A stretch of DNA of 43,160 nt, taken from assembly GCA_027353465.1 (NCBI GenBank), contig DAIEHR010000262.1, positions 1 to 43,160 of the forward strand. The letters run 5' to 3'. Under the pieces are notes generated by a model that searched no databases, was not told the origin of the DNA, and saw nothing but the letters and a program-made list of their open reading frames with translations. The position numbers were made by a program, and so were the translations under genes. Positions within the stretch are counted from its first letter, which is position 1. The number at the start of each line of letters is the position of its first letter. Shown here in pieces: positions 5,227 to 34,790 of the stretch. The DNA comes from Acetobacteraceae bacterium (GTDB taxonomy: Bacteria > Pseudomonadota > Alphaproteobacteria > Acetobacterales > Acetobacteraceae).

Positions 5227-5519
5227 TTAGAACTTCGAGTAAGACGCTGACTCGTTGCGGATGAGGACCTGCCTGACTGCGTCGGCACTCCAGGCCCCGC
5301 CACGTGACGTGCGGGTGCCCCGTGCGGTCAATTCAGCGGCGATCTGGCGCAGGCTCTGTCCATACGAACGCATGTCGGTGATCATCGGCCCCACTGCCCC
5401 CGCAAAGGCCCTGGCGCGGTCCTGGAGGGCCTGTGCTCCTGCCAGGGAGAAGGGGCCGCCTTTCCAGCCCCCAGCGTGACGCCATGGGACTTTGCGGCCA
5501 CTTCCCCTTTATGCTGCAT
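5227..5519 (-). pseudogene. C-terminal fragment of a serine recombinase, frameshifted
   Basis: Two minus frames join: MQHKGEVAAKSHGVTLG / GWKGGPFSLAGAQALQDRARAFAGAVGPMITDMRSYGQSLRQIAAELTARGTRTSRGGAWSADAVRQVLIRNESASYSKF*, a typical resolvase C-terminus without a catalytic domain. Confidence 0.65.
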
Positions 5520-6084
5520 CCCGGACCCTCATAATGGTCTGGCGGCTGGTGCCGTGCTGTTTGGCTAAAGCCGATACGCTAATGCCAGCGGCCAAGGCAT
5601 CCCGCACAGCATCCCGCTGGGCAGCATTCAAGGTTGCAGGCCGGCCCAGAGTCGCCCCCTCAGCCCTCGCCCTTTCCAGCCCCGCCTGGGTCCGCTCAAT
5701 CAGCAAATCCCGCTCGAACTGCGCGACGGCATTAATCACGCCCATGGTCATGCGGCCCGCTGGGCTGGTCAGATCAACTCCTCCTAGCGCGAGGCAATGA
5801 ACCCGGACACCCATGGCGGCCAGCCTATCGACCGTAATGGCCACGTCGATGGCGTTACGGCCCAACCGGTCCAGTTTGGTGACGATCAGCACATCATCCG
5901 CCTCAAGCCTATCCAGCAGCCGCGTGAAGCCGGGTCGCTGCTCAATCGCGGAACTCCCGGAAACCGTCTCCGCGATCACACGTCGGGTGTCCACGCGAAA
6001 CCCGGCGGCTTCGATCTCCCTGATTTGGTTTTCCGTAGTCTGGCCAGCGGTGGACACCCTGACGTAGGCGAAGGTGCGAGACAT
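5509..6084 (-). CDS. Serine resolvase/invertase family recombinase
   Basis: MSRTFAYVRVSTAGQTTENQ...VLIVTKLDRLGRNAIDV...GVINAVAQFERDLLIERTQAGLERARAEG...SVSALAKQHGTSRQTIMRV: resolvase N-terminal catalytic domain plus HTH. Confidence 0.93.
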   Translation of the reverse strand: MSRTFAYVRVSTAGQTTENQIREIEAAGFRVDTRRVIAETVSGSSAIEQRPGFTRLLDRLEADDVLIVTKLDRLGRNAIDVAITVDRLAAMGVRVHCLALGGVDLTSPAGRMTMGVINAVAQFERDLLIERTQAGLERARAEGATLGRPATLNAAQRDAVRDALAAGISVSALAKQHGTSRQTIMRVRDAA

Positions 6085-6224
6085 ACGTGGAACTCCATGT
6101 CCGAAAACGATGTCCGTATCCAAGGCAATGCCCGTAATGTCGTCAAGCTGTTTTTCGGACAGTTTGACCGGGCCCGTCCGAAATCGTTCGTTTTTGGACA
6201 GGGTAAGGCCCCACAACGCACTTT

Positions 6225-6542
6225 TTAGAACGGGAAGGCGCCTAGCTTGTGCGCGATCGTAAACAATATGACTGCAATCACGGCCAGGGTGGTGCGGATT
6301 TCCGCAAGTAGGCCCCCGGTCTTGTCCGTCGTGCGGTTGATTGCCCCTTGCACGTCCCACAGCTTCTCTCGCACTCCGTCCCGGACGTTCCCCAGGCCGT
6401 CTATTATCGCTGCACAGCCGGGATGGCTGGCTAGATATGTGTCCTTCTCCATCCCCCGGTGAGCGTCATAGGCGTCCTGGACCTTCCGCCAGCCTGCCGC
6501 TTCGTCCCACGGCTCTTTGCGGTATCTCGGTTCCCGTTCCAT
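6225..6542 (-). CDS. Small hypothetical protein with C-terminal transmembrane helix
   Basis: MEREPRYRKEPWDEAAGWRKVQDAYDAHRGMEKD...LLAEIRTTLAVIAVILFTIAHKLGAFPF. Confidence 0.5.
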   Translation of the reverse strand: MEREPRYRKEPWDEAAGWRKVQDAYDAHRGMEKDTYLASHPGCAAIIDGLGNVRDGVREKLWDVQGAINRTTDKTGGLLAEIRTTLAVIAVILFTIAHKLGAFPF

Positions 6543-6963: not shown

Positions 6964-7221
6964 TACAGGCAAAACAAATTCTTATTTTGAGCCGCTTTAT
7001 GCGATTTTTCCGGTTCGGAATGAGTATCTCATCCCCTCCGCCAATCTTATCATTCAAGCACTTGATTTAACCCCATTGTTCGCGGATCGGAGCGCTGCTG
7101 CGCTTTGCGCTACCGCAACATCTTTGCGATTGTCTTTGCACGTTCGCGCACGCGGCGCGCCCACGGGGGTCAGCGTCACTGGCGCGATGGAGTAGCGAAC
7201 GGTCGGATATACCAACCCGAG

Positions 7222-8226
7222 TCACAAAACGGAATCGAAGGTAGCATCGGTAGCATCGGGCAACGCCAGTCCAACGGGCACGCTCGTCCAGGTATTCCAC
7301 CCAAGACGCGGCGGGGCCGCTCCATTCAGCGACAGTGGAAACCTAGCGCCCGCGCCCAGCACGGGATTGATGACGAAGCCCACCTCCAAACCGAGGAATG
7401 CCTGAACCAGGCTAACGAGGCGGCGATGCGCCGGTTGGTCCGGCAGCAGCGCCTCAAAATCGTTCCGGTCCAGCGGGCCGATCCGCAGTACAATTCGGCC
7501 CTGGGTTTCCCAAGCTCGGTCTCCGACCACCGCATCGACGCCTAAACGGTTCCACGCACCCGCGTCCATCAGCCGCGGCAGGCAGGTCTGCTGGTCGGGC
7601 GGCAGAACGATCCAGCCGCCCGTGAATTGGCGGACTTCAACCGGCCTGCCGATCCAGTCGCCGACCAAGGCCGACAGACGCTCGGCGGAACGCGGATGCA
7701 TCGCGAACGATCCCGCATAGTGAAGCAGCGGGTCCGGACCAGCCTCCAGCCGCGCGAGCAAACCGGACGTGCCGTAGCCGGACACCGCAAGCAACGACGT
7801 GCTGATCGGGTCGGCCCGCGGCGGGACGGCCATGGCTGACACCTCGGCAGCACGATGCAGGCGATACTTGAAACCGGCCCGTCCGAACGCGGCCACCATG
7901 CGGTGCGACAGAAGATCCAGGAAATCGTGCAACGCGCTTGATCCGCGCCGGGACGTTTCCGCGGCCAGGGACTCATACAAACGCGGGAGGACGCCGCCGG
8001 CCCCGATCAGGCCAATCAGGGACACCGTGACGCGCGGTTCGGCCTGCCGATCAACCGCCGTGACCTCGCCCGCCGGAAACGCTCGGCCGGGTTGGGTGCG
8101 AAAGCGCGCCGCCTGCGATGGATCGCAGGTCTTCCGCAAACGCATCAACACCCGCAAGGCCGCGTCGAAGCCAAAGCGGTGCGGCTGTGTCAGAAGCCGG
8201 TGATGCACGGACGGTGCGCGCCTCAT
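7222..8226 (-). CDS. tssG: Type VI secretion baseplate protein TssG
   Basis: TssG-like start (PHRFGFDAALRVLMRL) and FLDLLSHRMVAAFGRAGFKYR; overlaps tssF. Confidence 0.92.
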   Translation of the reverse strand: MRRAPSVHHRLLTQPHRFGFDAALRVLMRLRKTCDPSQAARFRTQPGRAFPAGEVTAVDRQAEPRVTVSLIGLIGAGGVLPRLYESLAAETSRRGSSALHDFLDLLSHRMVAAFGRAGFKYRLHRAAEVSAMAVPPRADPISTSLLAVSGYGTSGLLARLEAGPDPLLHYAGSFAMHPRSAERLSALVGDWIGRPVEVRQFTGGWIVLPPDQQTCLPRLMDAGAWNRLGVDAVVGDRAWETQGRIVLRIGPLDRNDFEALLPDQPAHRRLVSLVQAFLGLEVGFVINPVLGAGARFPLSLNGAAPPRLGWNTWTSVPVGLALPDATDATFDSVL

Positions 8227-17835: not shown

Positions 17836-18321
17836 ATGGCCATCTACATGAAAAACGACAAGATTCCCGGCAACACCTCCACCGAGGGATTCAAGAACCA
17901 GATCGAGCTTCACAGCGCCAGTTTCGGCGCCGGTCGCATGATGGGCATGAGCAAGCGCAGCGATGCCAACCGCGGGCATGCCGAACCGCACCTGTCCGAG
18001 ATTTCGTGCTCCAAGGAATGGGACTCGGTGGCGTCAGGCAAACTCCTGCAGGACTCGCTGGCCGGCGTGGGCGACCACACCGTAACGATCAGCTTCACGA
18101 CAACCAGCAAGAACGTCGTTATCGCGTTCATGACCTATGAGTTGGAGGGCGTTGTCATCAGCAACTACTCCGTCGGCGCCGGCGGAGACTCGCAGCCCAG
18201 CGAGTCGTTCACCTTGAACTACACCAAAGTCACAGTCACCACCTTCGAAGTTAAGGACGGCAAGGCGACGAAGAAGGACGTTATCGTTTACTCTCTGCCG
18301 GAGATGAAGGCGAACGGCTGA
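17836..18321 (+). CDS. hcp: Type VI secretion tube protein Hcp (TssD)
   Basis: 161 aa; MAIYMKNDKIPGNTSTEGFKNQIELHSASFGAGR...EISCSKEWDSVASGKL, Hcp1 family. Confidence 0.95.
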   Translation: MAIYMKNDKIPGNTSTEGFKNQIELHSASFGAGRMMGMSKRSDANRGHAEPHLSEISCSKEWDSVASGKLLQDSLAGVGDHTVTISFTTTSKNVVIAFMTYELEGVVISNYSVGAGGDSQPSESFTLNYTKVTVTTFEVKDGKATKKDVIVYSLPEMKANG

Positions 18322-18350: not shown

Positions 18351-18385
18351 AGGCCCGTGACATGTGTCACGGGCCTTTGTCTTTG
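18351..18385 (+). terminator. Rho-independent-like terminator after hcp
   Basis: AGGCCCGTGAC-ATGT-GTCACGGGCCT followed by TTGTCTTTG, 30 nt after the hcp stop. Confidence 0.8.
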
Positions 18386-18414: not shown

Positions 18415-18780
18415 CTACGTCGCGTCAGTCACCACCGCTCGCGCATCAGTCTCTTGTCGCGGCAGCGCTGCTAGTTCCGCGACCGGCACCGCCCTGCTGA
18501 TGCCGTCGCCGCACAACAGGAAACGATCGCCGGCCGAGGGTCAGTTGTTCGATTGGGCCGCCCTGTAAACAGCCGGCCGCGACGTCGGCACCGATGCAGG
18601 CGATAGTCAGGGGAAAGCAGCGGCCGACGCGGTCAACACAGGCCAGCCGACAGACGGAAGAACCAGGCGTCCCAATGGTCGGTGAAGTGCCTCGGCAGGT
18701 CGGTTCGGACGAAATTGCCGCGCGAATGCTAACTTGCCGAAGTACCCCAGTGCCGGCGGGGTCAGTGCACGGCCGGGCAT
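18415..18780 (-). pseudogene. Decayed tagF (ImpM) with remnant of a PP2C/PppA-like phosphatase
   Basis: Minus-strand remnants in successive frames: MPGRALTPPALGYFGKLA / GNFVRTDLPRHFTDHWDAWFFRLSAGLC* / CVDRVGRCFPLTIACIGADVAA (TagF-like), then GDRFLLCGDGISRAVPVAELAALPRQETDARAVVTDAT* (PP2C C-terminus-like). Start ATG overlaps the tssM stop. Confidence 0.72.
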
Positions 18781-21700
18781 CGGAATGCCTCCAGCGCGGC
18801 CGGTTGCAGTGGATTGATCACCGACCCGGTGCGGATGGAGAATACCGCACGCCGCGGCCCCTGCTGGAATGTCAGCGTGTAATGGTCGGGCGAACCGTCC
18901 CCGGTCAGCGTGCCTTTTTGGAGCAACCGGAACAGTGCCCAGGGGCCGGAGGCGTGCAGGCTGCCGCCGCTCGCGGGCGGATCGAAGACCAGCCGGGCCG
19001 CGCTGCCCCCCTCCCTCGGCCACGCAACCTGCGTCGCCTGCTCCGGCCCGTGGGCGTAGACGATGCTCTCATCGCCGAGATCCAGGGTCACCTGCCTGGC
19101 GCCGGGATCCAGATCGACCGGAGTGATTTCCAGGTGAACCGATGGTGTCGATCCGCCGCCGGCGAAGAACATCTGGCGGATCAGTGAGGCTCGCTGGAAC
19201 TGCGCCAGTTCACCATCCGAGACCGGCGCGGCAATGCCATCGGCCGCCCGGGCGCGCCAGACAGGGCCGGTGGTGTCAGCATACGGGCGAATCTGGGTGT
19301 TGAAGTAGCCGTCGATCAGCCCGTTCGGCGCGAACAGGCGACCGAAATCGTCCAGCGGGATGCCGGCGGCAGCGGTGGTAGCGAATGGGTAATGGCCCTG
19401 AACAGTCTGCACGCACAACGCGGCCGGGCCGCCCTCCCCGTTAAACGCGGCGGCGGCCTGCTGACGGGCGCCCCCGGTGCGCAGGGCGGTAGCGGCGCTG
19501 GCCACGGACATCAGCCAGCGCTGCACCGGCTGCGGCGCCTGTGTGGCGACAGCCCGCAGCGTCGGGACCGGATCGGCGCCCCCCGGAGGCGTGGTCCCGG
19601 GAGGCGCGGCCGCGAGTTGCGCCAAGCTCTGCTGCACGCCGTTGATGGCGGTCAGCGCCTGGTCGATGCCCTGGCCAAGGAAATCGCTAAGCGGCTTGAA
19701 GTGCGCCTCAATCGCGGCTCCGGGTTGGACGACCCCGGCATTGGCGGCAGGGACCAGCAGGCGTTGCAGTTCGGCGGCGGCGCCGGTCGTCGCGGCCGGG
19801 GCGGCGGCCGGTGGCGCCATGGTCAGTTCGTGCGCAATCGACGCCAGCAAGGCGCGCATCGGCGATTGCGGGGACCCTAGCACATACAGCGCCTGTGCCG
19901 CCTGTGGCAGGGACTGTTGCGGCGCCAGGTTCAGGTCAGCCAGCAGGGCGTCCCACCGCCGGATCACGTCGGCCTCATAAAGTCCCACCACGGCGCTTTG
20001 CAGGCTCGCCAAGGCCGGACCGGAGAGATCGATCTGGCTCTGCTTGCCAAGCACCCAGCTTTCAGCCGCGACCTGCTTTGCCATCGCGGGAACCGAGGGC
20101 AGCAACACGGTATTGAATCCGATCTGGGTGTAGAGGCCCGGGACCCCGTCGGTCAGTGGCTTGCCGGAGGCTCGGACAAACAACGATGCGCCCGCCGCAC
20201 CCAGCGCGTCGGACGGGCGCCAGGGCGGCAGGGCCTGCGACGCGGCGGACAGGGCGATGCGGGCATAGACGCGTTGTGCGACCGAAACGCGGCTGAAGGT
20301 AACGCGCGCGGTATCCACCAGGGCGCCGTCGAGCGCGATGCTTGGCAGCGGCATTGCAAGCAGGGCGTTCAGGTGGCCAAGCAGATCGGCGCGCACGGGG
20401 GCGAGTTCGGCGCCGGGCAGTCGTTGTGCCCAATCCAGCCGCATCCAGGCGGTAACGAAGTCGCGGTCGAGCGGGCCCTCGCTGCCAAGCATCAGGTAAA
20501 CCCGGGTGGCCTCGTAGAGGAAATCGGGCTTGTCCCGGGCGGCGCGCATCTGGATTTCCAGCCGCACGATCAGACGGGGCAGTAGGATGTTCTGCAACGC
20601 GTTGCGGTAGACCGCTCGACCCGCGGCTGCGAGTTTATCGTGCTGCGACAGGCCGAGGCTGATCCGATCACTGCCGGCCGCTTGCAAGAGGCCACGGGCC
20701 TGGTTCAGCACAGGCACGATGGCGCGCAAATCCGCACTGGCGACCGGGGTCAACGTCCGCTGCGAAACCGTGTTGTCATATGCCGAGACCGCCCGCGCGA
20801 ACCGGCCAATATCGCCCTGGTTTACGGAGCGGGCGCTCCACAGCGCCAGGCCGCCGCCGGCGGTGGCCAATGCCAGGGTGGCATACCCGGCCGCCAACAG
20901 CAGGCGCCGCTTGCGGGCGGTACCGACCGGTTCCGAGACCAGCATGGCCTCACCCAGCACAACCTGGCAAAGCAAACGATTGAGGAAGAAGCTCTTCCCG
21001 TGATCGGGCCGCAGGCTGGGCATCCGGCGCTGATCGATGCCGAATCCCCCAGCCAGAACGCCGGTCAACCGATCGATCGGCGTACCCTGCTGGGTGCCGG
21101 AGGTCAGATAGACGCCACGCAGCATCGGCGCCGGGGCAAGCCGGGAGCCGCCGAAGGCCGCATCCAGGAACTGTTGCAGCGAGGTGCCAAGACTGGCGAC
21201 CTGGGCCGGGAAACCGGCGATCAGCGCCCGGCGGTCGGGGCTGCGCTCCGCCTGCATGCGGTCGAGCAAGCGGGCATCCAGGCGTTGCACCAAGCCCTTG
21301 AACGCGGCGGCAAAGCCGGACGTTACACCCGTGTCGGGTTGGGACAGCGGGAACGTGGTGCCCCACACTTGCGCCCGCTTTTCGCGATCGAGGTCGTCAA
21401 AGAACTCGGTGAAGCCGGCGATCAGGTCGGCCTTGGTGAAGACCGCATAGACCGGCAGGCGGACGCCCAGGCGGTCACGCAGTTCGTTCAACCGGCGGCG
21501 GATGGCGGCGGCGTGCATGGCAGAGGCTTCCGGCGAGTCGGTGGCGATGTCCGGCAGGGCAATCGCGACGATCACGCCGTTCAGCGGCTGACGGGTCCGG
21601 GTGCGCTTCAACAGATCGAGAAAGCTCTCCCAGCCAGCGCGGTCAACGGCGGCATCGGAATCCTGCGTGGTGTAGCGGCCGGCGGTGTCGATCAGCACGG

Positions 21701-22193
21701 CGTCATCGGTGAACCACCAATCGCACAGGCGCGTGCCACCGACGCCAGGGATCGCGTCCTCGCCCATCTCGTCGGCCAGGGGGAACCTCAGGCCAGAGTT
21801 CAGCAGGGCGGTGGTCTTGCCTGCGCCGGGCGGCCCGATGATGACGTACCACGGCTCCTGATACAGATAGCCGCGCTGGCCACGCGCCTTCCTCAGCAGT
21901 GCCATCGCTCGGCCAAGCCGCTCTTGCAGGGCGTCGGCTTCCTCGGCTGAGGCGACGGCAGCCGGGTCGGCCTCGGCAACGCCCGTGGCCAGTGCCGTGT
22001 CGCGCGCCCGACGGCGCCAGTCGATCGCCAGGTTGGCAACAACCCAGACGCCGAACAGCACAGCGATTACGGCGGCGCGGGGCAGCCATGGTTCCAGCGC
22101 GGCCAGGAACGGGCCGAACACCCAGACCAGGGCGGCGAGCAGCGCGGTGCCGATAAAGGTCAGTAACCAGCGGGAGAACTGGATATTGCGCAT
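18762..22193 (-). CDS. tssM: Type VI secretion membrane complex protein TssM (IcmF)
   Basis: 1143 aa; N-terminal TM segments, Walker A GPPGAGKTTALLNSGL, IcmF and DUF1215-like C-terminal regions. Confidence 0.97.
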   Translation of the reverse strand: MRNIQFSRWLLTFIGTALLAALVWVFGPFLAALEPWLPRAAVIAVLFGVWVVANLAIDWRRRARDTALATGVAEADPAAVASAEEADALQERLGRAMALLRKARGQRGYLYQEPWYVIIGPPGAGKTTALLNSGLRFPLADEMGEDAIPGVGGTRLCDWWFTDDAVLIDTAGRYTTQDSDAAVDRAGWESFLDLLKRTRTRQPLNGVIVAIALPDIATDSPEASAMHAAAIRRRLNELRDRLGVRLPVYAVFTKADLIAGFTEFFDDLDREKRAQVWGTTFPLSQPDTGVTSGFAAAFKGLVQRLDARLLDRMQAERSPDRRALIAGFPAQVASLGTSLQQFLDAAFGGSRLAPAPMLRGVYLTSGTQQGTPIDRLTGVLAGGFGIDQRRMPSLRPDHGKSFFLNRLLCQVVLGEAMLVSEPVGTARKRRLLLAAGYATLALATAGGGLALWSARSVNQGDIGRFARAVSAYDNTVSQRTLTPVASADLRAIVPVLNQARGLLQAAGSDRISLGLSQHDKLAAAGRAVYRNALQNILLPRLIVRLEIQMRAARDKPDFLYEATRVYLMLGSEGPLDRDFVTAWMRLDWAQRLPGAELAPVRADLLGHLNALLAMPLPSIALDGALVDTARVTFSRVSVAQRVYARIALSAASQALPPWRPSDALGAAGASLFVRASGKPLTDGVPGLYTQIGFNTVLLPSVPAMAKQVAAESWVLGKQSQIDLSGPALASLQSAVVGLYEADVIRRWDALLADLNLAPQQSLPQAAQALYVLGSPQSPMRALLASIAHELTMAPPAAAPAATTGAAAELQRLLVPAANAGVVQPGAAIEAHFKPLSDFLGQGIDQALTAINGVQQSLAQLAAAPPGTTPPGGADPVPTLRAVATQAPQPVQRWLMSVASAATALRTGGARQQAAAAFNGEGGPAALCVQTVQGHYPFATTAAAGIPLDDFGRLFAPNGLIDGYFNTQIRPYADTTGPVWRARAADGIAAPVSDGELAQFQRASLIRQMFFAGGGSTPSVHLEITPVDLDPGARQVTLDLGDESIVYAHGPEQATQVAWPREGGSAARLVFDPPASGGSLHASGPWALFRLLQKGTLTGDGSPDHYTLTFQQGPRRAVFSIRTGSVINPLQPAALEAFRCPAVH

Positions 22194-24941: not shown

Positions 24942-25400
24942 TCAGCTCGGCGAAACGGTCAGTTGAAGGCCGCTGGTAACCAGCGTCAGCCGGGTCGGCC
25001 CATTCGGCGCGGCCGGGACGTGCACCCGCCATGTCGCCCGGTCGATCGCGCGAAACAGCGCGACGGCGCCGATGAAGCGGGTGTTCGGCTTCAGGTCCAT
25101 GACCTGCGTGTGCGTCGCGCCCTGGGCGACAATGATTTCGTCGGAGGCCAAGCGGTCCGACCCCAGCGCCTCGGCTTCCCGGTCCATCAGCGTGTACACG
25201 TCAGCCCGTTCGAACGCCCCCAGCGCGGCAAGTTGATAGATACGGATCGCCACCGGCGTTGGCCGGCCGGCCGGGTCGGGATTCTGGTCGGCGCCCGCGT
25301 GGATGGTCAGCGCCAACGTGGGGGGCTGTGGCGGTGGTGCGGCACAGCGCGCCACCAATAGCAGCGGCGCCAGCAGGACGGTTCGACGATGCGGCATCAA
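24942..25400 (-). CDS. tssJ: Type VI secretion lipoprotein TssJ
   Basis: Signal peptide with lipobox-like LVARC; TssJ core (NPDPAGRPTPVAIRIYQLAALGAFERADVYTLMDREAEALG). Confidence 0.92.
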   Translation of the reverse strand: MMPHRRTVLLAPLLLVARCAAPPPQPPTLALTIHAGADQNPDPAGRPTPVAIRIYQLAALGAFERADVYTLMDREAEALGSDRLASDEIIVAQGATHTQVMDLKPNTRFIGAVALFRAIDRATWRVHVPAAPNGPTRLTLVTSGLQLTVSPS

Positions 25401-26503
25401 CTCGCCGCCCGCGCTTCACGCAGCGCCTGCTCATACGCTCGGGCGAAGGATCGGCCAAACGCACTTTCAAAGCTGTCCGACAACGCGCTGGTCAACCGGC
25501 CGTGCGCGACCTCGAATGCTTCCCATGCGCGCGCCTTGCGTTGCGCCTCCAGCAGGCCGCCACCGCTGCTCTCGCGCAGCTTGGCCGGGTCGAGTTCCCT
25601 CAGCAGGGCACGCACGGCGCTCTGCATTGCGGCAATGGCGGCCAGTTCGTGCAGGCGAATGTCCTGGAATGCCTCCGCGACGGCGGCGGCGGGGGCCATT
25701 TCGGTGCGGCGTCCGGCGCCCACCAGGGCAAGCAGGGCGTCGTCATCGCTGGCCGAGAATTTCAGCGGGTTGTTGCCATGTGCACGGATTACCGTCTGGT
25801 CGATGCGGAATTCGCTTTTGACCGCGGCGCGGGCGGCCAAGGTCTCGCGCAGGCCGCCGGCCATGGCCCGAAACGCCGCACCGAGGCGTTCCATGGCGGC
25901 GACCGGATCGGCGGGATAAGCGTCCGGCATCGCCGCACCGCGCAGGAACGCTGCCATTAGGTCGGTGGTGGACGACGCTGGCACCGGCGCGGGCGCCAGA
26001 TCTGGCGTGATCGCGGCCACGAGTGGCGGCGCGGGTGAGTCGGAAAGGTCCCAGTCGTCATCCAGCAGGACCACGGGACGAGGCGGCCGGAAGGCGTCCT
26101 CGACGCCCGGCGTGTGATCCGGTTGGACAGGGCCGGCGAACACCTCTGGCTCCAATGAACCGAACAGGTCGATGGGCTGTGACGCGGGTTCAGCTATGCT
26201 GACGCCGATCTCATAGCCGCCCAGACGGACACGGTCTCCGTCACGTAGGTCGCGGACGCCGTGGGCACCGATCGGATCGCGTTCGTCGTTGAGGAAGGTG
26301 CCGTTTGTGCTGAGATCAGTGACCTCCCAGGCGCCATCCCGGAAGCCGACGGCGCAATGACGCTTCGACAGGTGGCGTTGGGGGTCGGGCAGCACCCAAT
26401 CGTTGTCCGCCCCCCGTCCAATGGCGAACGTGCCGCGCGGGATGTCCCGCGTGTCGCAGCCGGCGCTGCCCGGTCCGGCCAGAACGGAAAGTGTCAAGCG
26501 CAT
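25397..26503 (-). CDS. tagH: Type VI secretion-associated FHA domain protein TagH
   Basis: N-terminal FHA domain (GTFAIGRGADNDWVLPDPQRHLSKRHCAVGFRDGAWEVTDLSTNGTFLND) and C-terminal T6SS-FHA domain. Confidence 0.93.
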   Translation of the reverse strand: MRLTLSVLAGPGSAGCDTRDIPRGTFAIGRGADNDWVLPDPQRHLSKRHCAVGFRDGAWEVTDLSTNGTFLNDERDPIGAHGVRDLRDGDRVRLGGYEIGVSIAEPASQPIDLFGSLEPEVFAGPVQPDHTPGVEDAFRPPRPVVLLDDDWDLSDSPAPPLVAAITPDLAPAPVPASSTTDLMAAFLRGAAMPDAYPADPVAAMERLGAAFRAMAGGLRETLAARAAVKSEFRIDQTVIRAHGNNPLKFSASDDDALLALVGAGRRTEMAPAAAVAEAFQDIRLHELAAIAAMQSAVRALLRELDPAKLRESSGGGLLEAQRKARAWEAFEVAHGRLTSALSDSFESAFGRSFARAYEQALREARAAS

Positions 26504-26507
26504 GCCA

Positions 26508-26795
26508 TCACCCAATCAACACGCGAGGCCAGCCGAACACGATCGTCCCTCCGTGGCCAGTAACATCCCCCATACGAGCAGCCGGCAGCTTGCCGATCAG
26601 CACGGTGGGCGACCCAAGGGCGATCAGGTCGGGCGGGCCGACGCAGACCAGTTGGTCGGTGGCGCGCGCGGCGGGCAAGCCGCCGACCAGCACCGTCGGT
26701 TGGCCCTTGATGATCGGACCGCCGACATGCGGGACCGGTCCGTTGCACATCGGGCAGATGTGCATGTCGGTGATGCGGGCGGCTGGCTGTCCCAT
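26508..26795 (-). CDS. PAAR domain spike-tip protein
   Basis: 95 aa; MGQPAARITDMHICPMCNGPVPHVGGPIIKGQPTVLVGGLPAARATDQLVCVGPPDLIALGSPTVLIGKLPAARMGD. Confidence 0.95.
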   Translation of the reverse strand: MGQPAARITDMHICPMCNGPVPHVGGPIIKGQPTVLVGGLPAARATDQLVCVGPPDLIALGSPTVLIGKLPAARMGDVTGHGGTIVFGWPRVLIG

Positions 26796-29382: not shown

Positions 29383-30780
29383 TCAGGTCGACTTCGCCTC
29401 GATCTCGGTTCGGAGCCTGCGTTGCAGGCGCACGCGTTCATCGGGCTTCTCGACATGGGCGCAAAGGCGTTCGATGAAATCGCTGATCGAGATAGCCTTC
29501 GCGGCCGCGTCCCGGACCAGAACCCGAGCGATCGGCCCCACATGGACCACCAAAGCGGCTTGCGCCGTCGCCGCGGCATCGACGGAAATCAACGCCTGCC
29601 CGCCCCCCATGACAGAGCCCATCATCGGCCCCGGCATCCGGTCTTGGCGGGTGTGCCCAGCGTCCGTGTGCCCCGCTCCTGTCCGGCCCGCCAGTGTCCG
29701 AGCACCGCCGAGGCTCGGTTCGATCCGGCCGCCGCCGACGGCGCGCAGGAAGCGGCTCCGTTCCGCCGCACTCGGCAACTCGTTCGCCAGGGCCGCATAT
29801 AGCTCGCTGGGTGTGACGGCATTGCGCGCGGCCCGCAACACCATGGCGCGCGCCATCGGGCCGACGAATTTGCTAAGCTGCCGCTCCGCTTGCTGCACGA
29901 GCGAGGGGTCCAGCGTCGGTGCCGGATGTCGTGAAGCCGCCAGAACAACCGTGGCTCCGGGGTCGCCGATGGCGGACTGAAGGGCCGCGGAAAACGCGTC
30001 CGCGGTTTGAAAACGCCGGCTCCTGTCTTTGTCCAATCCACGCCGCAGCAACGCCACATAGCCGCCCTGGATGGGGTTGAGATCGACCGGATCCGGACTG
30101 GACAGACGGCCAATGGTCTCGGTCACGGTCCGGCCAACAAACGGGGGCTTGCCGGCGAGCATTTCATAGATGATGGCGGCGACCGCAAACAGGTCCGCCC
30201 GGCGGTCCACCGCGTCGTCTGTCAACTGCTCCGGCGCCATGTAGCTCGGCGTGCCAAGCATGCCGCCGCCGATCGTGGCGTTGCCGTCGGTCAGGCGAGC
30301 TACGCCGAAATCAGCGATCTTCGCCTGACCGGATGTCGTCAGCAGGATGTTCGCCGGCTTGATATCGCGATGGATGATGCCCTGGCCATGCGCGTAACCC
30401 AGACCGTCCAGCACCTGCTGCATGACATCCGGAATGGACAAGGCGGCGCGGCGAACCGGGTCGCGCATGGCGCTGTACAGGCTGCTGCCCTCGACCAGTT
30501 CCATGACGATGGCGGGATCGCCCAACTGTTCCAGGAAGTCATAGACCCCGACGATCGCGGGATGGGTGCAACGTCCCGCGGCCTGCACCTCCGCGCGGAA
30601 ACGTATGAGCGATGCAGTCCGCTCCTCCGGCTCCCCCGCCTCCATGCGCACCACTTTAATAGCGACATTGCGGCCAATGACCGGGTCGTAGGCCTTGAAC
30701 ACGGCCCCCATCGCGCCGCTGCCAAGCATGTCGAGCACTTGGTAGCGTCCGATGTTCACAGGTCGCGGAGGATCTGTCAT
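29383..30780 (-). CDS. Serine/threonine protein kinase, PpkA-like, with two C-terminal repeated domains
   Basis: Kinase motifs YQVLDMLGSGAMGAVFKAYD, VAIKVV, HRDIKPANILL, DFGVAR; no TM helix seen; C-terminal related segments FVGPMARAMVLRAARNAVTPSELYAAL and HVGPIARVLVRDAAAKAISISDFIERL. Confidence 0.93.
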   Translation of the reverse strand: MTDPPRPVNIGRYQVLDMLGSGAMGAVFKAYDPVIGRNVAIKVVRMEAGEPEERTASLIRFRAEVQAAGRCTHPAIVGVYDFLEQLGDPAIVMELVEGSSLYSAMRDPVRRAALSIPDVMQQVLDGLGYAHGQGIIHRDIKPANILLTTSGQAKIADFGVARLTDGNATIGGGMLGTPSYMAPEQLTDDAVDRRADLFAVAAIIYEMLAGKPPFVGRTVTETIGRLSSPDPVDLNPIQGGYVALLRRGLDKDRSRRFQTADAFSAALQSAIGDPGATVVLAASRHPAPTLDPSLVQQAERQLSKFVGPMARAMVLRAARNAVTPSELYAALANELPSAAERSRFLRAVGGGRIEPSLGGARTLAGRTGAGHTDAGHTRQDRMPGPMMGSVMGGGQALISVDAAATAQAALVVHVGPIARVLVRDAAAKAISISDFIERLCAHVEKPDERVRLQRRLRTEIEAKST

Positions 30781-32141: not shown

Positions 32142-34790
32142 ATGACCAGCATTCATTTTAAGTTCGGTGACCGAGCGGATGCAGGCCGCCAATTGGCAGC
32201 CAGATTGGTTACGATGACGCTTGATCGGCCCGTGGTTTACGCTCTGCCCCGCGGCGGTGTTCCCGTCGCCCTGGAAATCGCGCAGGCTCTGCATGCCCCG
32301 CTCGAGCTTATGCTGGTGCGCAAGATTGGGGCGCCAGGCGCACCCGAAGTGGCACTTGGCGCGGTTGTCGAGGGCGAACATCCCGAGACCGTTATCAATG
32401 AAAACATGCGGCGCATTTCCGGCGTGGACGACGCTTATCTTGAGCGTGCCCGCCAGCGCGAACTTCGGGAACTTGAACGTCGCCGTGCCCGATATTTGGG
32501 CGACCGCCCGCGCCTGAGCCCGGCAGGATGCACCGCGATCATTGTCGATGATGGTCTTGCCACGGGGGCCACGGCTAAAGCCGCCCTGATTGCCCTCAAA
32601 CGCCAGGGCGCGGCCAAGACTGTGCTCGCGATCCCGGTTGCGCCGGAGGAAGCGCTGACCGATATCCGCAAGCACGCCGACCTTGTCGTATGCCTGCATT
32701 CCGCCAGGCGCTTTAACGGGGTTGGTGCTTTCTACAGCGATTTCCATCAACTCACGGATGAAGAAACACTCGGGTTGTTGCGTCAGGGTTGGGCGGAGGC
32801 TCCGGGCCCGTCCCAGGTCTTTGCCAGACGGCAGATCGCAGTGCCGCCCTTGGGCCTGGTCGGCGACCTGTGCGTGCCGCCGGAACCGCGCGGCATTGTT
32901 CTGTTCACGCATGGGAGCGGGTCGAGCCGACTTAGTCCTCGCAACATCTCCGTTGCCGACGCATTGAACACAAAGGGCTTCGCCACGCTTCTGCTGGATC
33001 TGCTGACTGTGGATGAGGCGAAGGACCGGCGCAATGTCTTCGATATTTCCCTGCTCGCGGAGCGCGTGCTGGAGGCGGCGCAATGGATCAGTGCTGAGCC
33101 CGACATCGCCGATCTGCCGCTGGGTCTGTTTGGAGCCAGCACAGGCGCTGGGGCGGCTTTACTGGCCGCGGCGGAACTTCGTGGCCGGGTGCAGGCAGTG
33201 GTCTCCCGCGGCGGCCGTCCCGATCTGGCCGGGTCGCGATTGGCTGAGGTCAGCGCGCCGACCCTGCTGATCGTCGGTGGCGACGATCGTAAGGTGCTCA
33301 CCCTGAACCGCCAGGCTCTGGCCGATTTGAGGTGTGAAAAGCTGTTGAGGATTGTCCCCAACGCGACCCATTTGTTCGAGGAGCCTGGCGCGCTGGAAAC
33401 GGTCACCGAGATGGCAGCCGCCTGGTTCCAGCACTATCTGGTGCCGCCAGCACGACGTCACGCCCCTATAGCGCCCTCGGTGGCCCAACCAGTATCGACG
33501 GCGGCATTGCTGCGTGGCGCGGCAGAACCATTGCCTGCCTTGGACGATCCGGCCTTCGCTGACGCCTTCGACCGGTTTGGTCAGTCGCGCATTGTGTTGC
33601 TCGGAGAGGCCTCCCACGGCACGTCGGAGTTCTATCGGGCCCGCGCCGCCATCACGCGCCGGCTGATCGAGCGTCATGGTTTTACGATCGTGGCGGTGGA
33701 GGCCGACTGGCCTGATGCCGCCGCAATCGACCGCTATGTGCGGCGAAGCCCGCATGAGCCAATGAGCTCATCACCGTTCTCGCGCTTCCCGACCTGGATG
33801 TGGCGCAACAAGGATGTCGATGACTTCGTTGCCTTCCTTCGGCGCCACAACGCTACGCGATCGCCCGGCGACAGAGTGGGGTTCTACGGTCTCGATCTGT
33901 ACAACATGACCGCCTCGATTGCCTCCGTCCTTACTTACCTCGATCGCGTCGATCCCAAGGCGGCGGAAGTAGCGCGCCTTCGCTATGCCTGCCTGTCGCC
34001 CTGGTCGCGGGAACCGGCGGCCTATGGGCGGGCTTCGCTCACCGAAGGCTACGCATTGTGCGAACAGCCGGTGACCCGCATTCTCGTCGATCTAATGCAA
34101 AAGGAACTTCGATACGCACGCCACGACGGCGCGGGGTTTTTCGACGCGGCGCAGAATGCCCGTCTGGTGGCTGACGCGGAGCGTTATTACCGGGTCATGT
34201 ATTACGGTTCCCACGAGTCCTGGAACCTGCGCGACCAGCATATGTTTGATACGCTGCGGCACATTCTGGAATGGGCTGGTCCCGACAAGAAAGCCGTTGT
34301 CTGGGCCCACAACTCCCACATTGGGGATGCGCGGTTCACCGATATGGGCATGGAGCGCGGGGAACTGAACATCGGCCAGCTGTGCCGCCAGTCTTATGGG
34401 GGCGATGCTACGTTGATCGGCTTCGGCACGCATACCGGTACTGTTGCGGCGGCCTCCGAATGGGATGCGCCGATGGAGATCAAGACAGTGCGGCCGTCCC
34501 GGCCCGACAGTTACGAGGCGTTGTGTCACCAGGTCGGCCACGAACGCTTCCTGTGGGACCTGCGGGCCGGACATCGTGACGATCTTCGGCATGTTCTGGC
34601 CGAACCCCGATTGGAACGTTACATTGGGGTTATATATAGGCCGGAGACGGAACGCTGGAGCCATTACACCTACGCGACGCTTCCCGACCAGTATGACGCC
34701 TTCGCATGGTTCGATAAGACCCGCGCGGTGATACCGCTGCCTGGGCAGGTGACCGCCGGAGATGATGAGACCTATCCCTTCGGCCTCTGA
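32142..34790 (+). CDS. Three-domain fusion: phosphoribosyltransferase, dienelactone-hydrolase-like alpha/beta hydrolase, erythromycin esterase family
   Basis: PRTase (ALPRGGVPVALEIAQAL...CTAIIVDDGLATGATAKAAL), hydrolase (LFTHGSGSSRLSPRN...GLFGASTGAGAAL), esterase (IVLLGEASHGTSEFYRARAAITRRLIERHGFTIVAVEADWPDAAAIDRYV). Confidence 0.92.
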   Translation: MTSIHFKFGDRADAGRQLAARLVTMTLDRPVVYALPRGGVPVALEIAQALHAPLELMLVRKIGAPGAPEVALGAVVEGEHPETVINENMRRISGVDDAYLERARQRELRELERRRARYLGDRPRLSPAGCTAIIVDDGLATGATAKAALIALKRQGAAKTVLAIPVAPEEALTDIRKHADLVVCLHSARRFNGVGAFYSDFHQLTDEETLGLLRQGWAEAPGPSQVFARRQIAVPPLGLVGDLCVPPEPRGIVLFTHGSGSSRLSPRNISVADALNTKGFATLLLDLLTVDEAKDRRNVFDISLLAERVLEAAQWISAEPDIADLPLGLFGASTGAGAALLAAAELRGRVQAVVSRGGRPDLAGSRLAEVSAPTLLIVGGDDRKVLTLNRQALADLRCEKLLRIVPNATHLFEEPGALETVTEMAAAWFQHYLVPPARRHAPIAPSVAQPVSTAALLRGAAEPLPALDDPAFADAFDRFGQSRIVLLGEASHGTSEFYRARAAITRRLIERHGFTIVAVEADWPDAAAIDRYVRRSPHEPMSSSPFSRFPTWMWRNKDVDDFVAFLRRHNATRSPGDRVGFYGLDLYNMTASIASVLTYLDRVDPKAAEVARLRYACLSPWSREPAAYGRASLTEGYALCEQPVTRILVDLMQKELRYARHDGAGFFDAAQNARLVADAERYYRVMYYGSHESWNLRDQHMFDTLRHILEWAGPDKKAVVWAHNSHIGDARFTDMGMERGELNIGQLCRQSYGGDATLIGFGTHTGTVAAASEWDAPMEIKTVRPSRPDSYEALCHQVGHERFLWDLRAGHRDDLRHVLAEPRLERYIGVIYRPETERWSHYTYATLPDQYDAFAWFDKTRAVIPLPGQVTAGDDETYPFGL

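Follow-up and report, generated by a model that had tools for sequence, protein, structure and literature searches.

The gap between hcp and tssM in an Acetobacteraceae T6SS cluster holds the pseudogene remnant of a tagF-pppA pair that formerly followed tssM, very probably left in an accessory T6SS whose cis-encoded pair eroded under relaxed selection; an intact pair remains on another contig (C337) of the same genome. The window, i.e. the whole stretch of 43,160 nucleotides that was analysed, is contig C36 of a metagenome-assembled genome (G000; 77% complete, 413 contigs). Its T6SS gene set comprises tssA, tssB, two tssC-type genes, tssE, tssF, tssG, clpV, hcp, tssM, tssL, tssK, tssJ, the gene of an FHA protein, vgrG and a ppkA-type kinase gene (Table 1). 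The kinase and the FHA protein, which the original prediction held to be retained at the locus, are both open frames. In characterized systems, TagF acts on Fha to block T6SS assembly, and PppA counteracts PpkA (PMC5995506, PMC6082577).

The end of hcp (18321) and the end of tssM on the minus strand (18762) are 440 bases apart. Between 18415 and 18780, the minus strand carries fragments of tagF and pppA that are scattered across three frames and interrupted by stops and large deletions. They keep the gene order, the tagF start coming first, then the middle of tagF and the C-terminus of pppA. All the peptides that had been quoted from this gap are present on the minus strand where they were placed, among them SRGNFVRTDLPRHFTDHWDAWFFRLSAGLC at 18633-18728. 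Each piece is only 7-31 aa long. The GYFGKLA piece alone is too short for an HMM score and is supported by its position: the first ATG overlaps the tssM stop, as had been noted by comparison with an intact operon. No single open frame runs across the TagF_N domain, which is distributed over three frames with stops and missing segments, so that tagF persists as a pseudogene only. Traces of the GK, DF, DW and SDR motifs, reported as necessary for Fha binding after their mutation in Agrobacterium and Pseudomonas (PMC5995506), sit in different frames of the remnant and never together in one protein. The pppA remnant lacks a complete catalytic domain, about 37 of 235 model positions being left. Production of TagF or PppA from the gap is ruled out by the frameshifts, stops and deletions. 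A search of the gap for structured RNA gave no Rfam family reaching its gathering score.

Table 1. Coordinates of the T6SS genes and tagF-pppA remnants in the window, and contigs of the filamentous-haemagglutinin-linked pairs
Feature	Location	Strand	Evidence and remarks
hcp (T6SS tube protein), convergent with tssM	17836..18321	+	Pfam T6SS_HCP 9.3e-23
Probable intrinsic hcp terminator (hairpin of a perfect 11-bp stem with a 4-nt loop, then a T-rich tail)	18351..18376	+	Terminator scan, consensus match only; 1 found vs 1.4 expected in shuffles
pppA (PP2C phosphatase) C-terminal remnant	18415..18540	-	GDRFLLCGDG...VPVAELAALP; genus PppA HMM E=7.6e-7, model positions 177-213 of 235; nucleotide match collinear with G002 pppA
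tagF remnant, third frame	18596..18649	-	VDRVGRCFPLTIA segment; TagF_N positions 72-89; genus HMM E=1.5e-4
tagF remnant, second frame	18633..18728	-	SRGNFVRTDLPRHFTDHWDAW...SAGLC; TagF_N positions 8-29; genus HMM E=1.7e-7
tagF remnant, first frame	18727..18780	-	ATG at 18780, start codon overlaps tssM stop by 19 nt; carries GYFGKLA (18727-18747); position-supported
tssM, intact	18762..22193	-	IcmF-related domains
fha, FHA-domain protein	25397..26515	-	T6SS_FHA_C 3.2e-50, FHA 1.7e-15; Fha is the known TagF target elsewhere
ppkA-type Ser/Thr kinase	29383..30780	-	Pkinase 9.2e-49; VAIK, HRDIKPAN, DFG and APE motifs
tagF-pppA pairs linked to filamentous haemagglutinin	G000 C337, G020 C29, G005 C107		

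The identity of the fragments was established by family searches. E-values with the Pfam model TagF_N (PF09867) were 8.5e-4 for the second fragment alone, 0.035 for the third frame and 3.4e-10 once the pieces were joined; a Pfam search with the pppA C-terminal piece alone returned no match. Genus HMMs were trained solely on the TagF and PppA of relatives, trimmed so that tssM sequence stays out, and run against the window as 1281 six-frame pieces. The only significant matches (TagF 1.7e-7 and 1.5e-4; PppA 7.6e-7) all lie within the gap, and the next-best TagF match among the 1281 pieces has E=0.15. In ten Markov-shuffled windows the maxima were 9.9 bits for TagF and 5.7 bits for PppA, against observed scores of 27.2, 17.6 and 25.0. 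That such short pieces are chance peptides of GC-rich non-coding DNA is vanishingly improbable, given per-piece E-values of 1e-7 to 1e-4 found nowhere else among the 1281 pieces and a gene order kept at the very site where relatives hold tagF-pppA; the HMM and shuffle control, together with the collinear nucleotide matches to a relative (G002), refutes a chance origin.

This relative carries the intact counterpart. The nearest relative of the window T6SS is found on contig C89 of genome G002 (TssM 75.7% and Hcp 73.9% identical; clade support 100/100). Exactly where the window has its gap, between tssM and hcp, G002 has an open tagF (181 aa) and an open pppA (255 aa): the start of tagF lies within the tssM end, and tagF is followed by pppA and then by the convergent hcp. 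The tagF-tssM overlap is 19 nt, the same as in the window (locus L101: tagF start 2939, tssM end 2921). The nucleotide sequences of the window and G002 match collinearly at either end of the pair, which is intact in G002 and broken in the window. Because an intact pair stands at the same place with collinear matches at both ends, the gap is a decayed tagF-pppA pair, and the predicted remnant is thus borne out by the HMM matches and by G002 alike. G002 has, in addition, an open frame of 186 aa between its hcp and its pppA (L101:704-1264), which the window lacks. The same arrangement recurs in the genus: among the neighbourhoods read, tagF-pppA directly follows tssM in 12, and hcp lies beyond pppA in all nine of these 12 that have hcp on the stretch.

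The stretch measures about 1300 bp in G002 and 366 bp in the window, which has thus lost about 930 bp of coding sequence. This bears on the possibility that a sequencing or assembly error makes intact genes look broken. The genome is indeed a fragmented metagenome assembly with a near-identical alternative contig end at tssG, but a loss of this size, over more than one junction and with several frames shifted, is more than read errors can produce, and hcp and tssM on either side are both open. Such an error is accordingly considered very improbable.

The locus can be compared with T6SSs of the threonine phosphorylation pathway, represented by the Agrobacterium TagF-PppA (Atu4331), the Pseudomonas aeruginosa TagF PA0076 (PDB 2qnu) and the Serratia TagF encoded downstream of tssM. 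It resembles them in gene content, in gene order after tssM and in the TagF_N and PP2C domains, and differs in that both genes are broken. The parallel drawn earlier with the Agrobacterium TagF-PppA is supported (PMC5995506), except that in G002 tagF and pppA are separate, overlapping genes; the genus relatives read likewise mostly have two separate adjacent genes instead of a fusion.

Genome G000 contains at least two further T6SS clusters, one on contigs C222 and C50, which are probably two parts of one tssM, and one on contig C290. Contig C222 carries a kinase gene, so that one further T6SS has its own kinase. Both of these other T6SS types are present in the sister genomes G020, G005 and G018, in which no window-type tssM was found; this absence argues that the window T6SS is accessory in the clade. 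Part of the right flank of the window is 93% identical to G020, and the tetranucleotide profiles of the window T6SS part and of contig C337 correlate at 0.96. On these grounds both C36 and C337 look native. As regards a possible insertion of the T6SS beside the right flank, the G020 contig stops at this point, and G005 has the flanking gene with no T6SS nearby.

Several further features of the window deserve mention. The first 7 kb have a deviating tetranucleotide profile (correlation of 0.85 or lower with the rest), and a resolvase-family recombinase is encoded at 5509-6360, near the tssG edge of the cluster. The tssG end with its downstream flank (7026-7406) recurs, 97.9% identical, where contig C303 terminates (L166 18058-18438). 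This repeat suggests either a strain variant or a duplicate of the cluster edge. A single open frame at 32142-34790 fuses phosphoribosyltransferase-like, hydrolase-like and erythromycin-esterase-like domains.

Elsewhere in the genome, on contig C337, tagF (TagF_N, 132.5 bits) and pppA (PP2C_2, 44.4 bits) are both intact, with pppA immediately after tagF. The pair occupies L032 9292-10772 and occurs also in L040 and L042, i.e. in three species. Its neighbours encode a 1165-aa protein, a ShlB/FhaC-type transporter and a filamentous-haemagglutinin-like protein that exceeds 2400 aa and was recognized by its own sequence and its partner; G020 and G005 carry the same pair with the same neighbours (FhaC and the 1165-aa protein). 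A T6SS-unlinked pair beside a two-partner-secretion (FhaB/FhaC-type) locus is an unusual neighbourhood for T6SS regulators. These pairs share the two families and the gene order of the window remnant but, unlike it, are not beside T6SS structural genes. Among the sister species, dN/dS is 0.27-0.31 for tagF and 0.12-0.13 for pppA, which points to purifying selection on the haemagglutinin-linked pair. The C337 TagF has all of the GK, DF, DW and SDR motifs and matches structures 6iz8 and 2qnu. In the TagF and PppA trees the three haemagglutinin-linked pairs form one well-supported clade. Support is poor for the point at which this clade joins the T6SS-linked pairs, and G002 sits on a long branch.

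Across 33 genomes of the genus, a related tssM was found in 25 and TagF in 24, and nearly all the TagF-bearing genomes have a single intact TagF, even those with two or three T6SSs. On the stretches read in G005, G018 and G020, neither tagF nor pppA was found around the C222/C50-type tssM, and we infer for this reason that the C337 pair is most simply the trans-encoded pair of that T6SS. Genome G018 (94% complete; L104, contig C135) has two T6SSs, with no TagF and no close PppA found. Since it has the same other T6SSs without TagF, a trans copy is not required. In G029, which has two T6SSs, a tagF frame on contig C148 (L044 7600-8950) keeps the N-terminal motifs without the region of the SDR motif, next to an open pppA, while the other T6SS cluster has a full tagF; this is an apparent independent case of tagF erosion.

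The original prediction concluded that the organism had lost both negative regulators, which would favour a de-repressed T6SS. The loss is correct for the locus, which makes neither TagF nor PppA, and wrong for the genome, in which a search for intact copies recovered the C337 pair. A T6SS freed of both regulators and firing constitutively is unlikely. The locus does make neither protein while ppkA and fha are open, and G018 illustrates that T6SSs of this clade exist without TagF. Against this stand the intact, conserved tagF-pppA pair on C337 and the finding that deletion of tagF alone in Serratia leaves Hcp secretion unchanged, although PpkA is then no longer needed (PMC6082577). When pppA is lost, according to PMC5995506, killing declines even though secretion rises. 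De-repression therefore does not follow from the literature. If the C337 TagF is inactive on the window cluster, the Serratia result leads one to expect independence from the kinase, not necessarily hyperactivity.

The history favoured here, that of a cis pair eroded in an accessory T6SS, runs as follows. The tagF-pppA pair once followed tssM in the window cluster, as it does in G002, and both genes were broken in the window lineage by frameshifts, stops and deletions. The accessory T6SS's own pair most likely became dispensable and decayed under relaxed selection, either because the C337 pair was already in the lineage or because the window T6SS no longer needed the repression and phosphorylation cycle. 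Two consequences may be envisaged: the C337 TagF would bind the window Fha and restrain the window T6SS in trans, or the window T6SS would assemble without TagF and without need for PpkA. The evidence favours neither. As the C337 TagF shares only about 43% identity with its counterpart in the ortholog cluster of G002, any action on the window Fha is hypothetical. All statements at the level of the genome are to be read with its 77% completeness and 413 contigs in mind, a missing further intact copy and a strain mixture being possible. It is a tentative and rather doubtful proposal that the T6SS-unlinked C337-type pair acts as a genome-wide brake shared by more than one T6SS, which would have made the cis copy dispensable and let it decay.

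The decayed pair is in itself an ordinary pseudogene case, and the interest lies in the intact T6SS-unlinked pair by an adhesin-type locus. A T6SS cluster without its own negative regulators is not by itself proof of a de-repressed weapon, as the regulators may be encoded elsewhere. The genus offers a tractable setting for asking whether one TagF serves several T6SSs and, if a shared brake does exist, it could link the restraint of T6SSs with a contact-dependent surface system.
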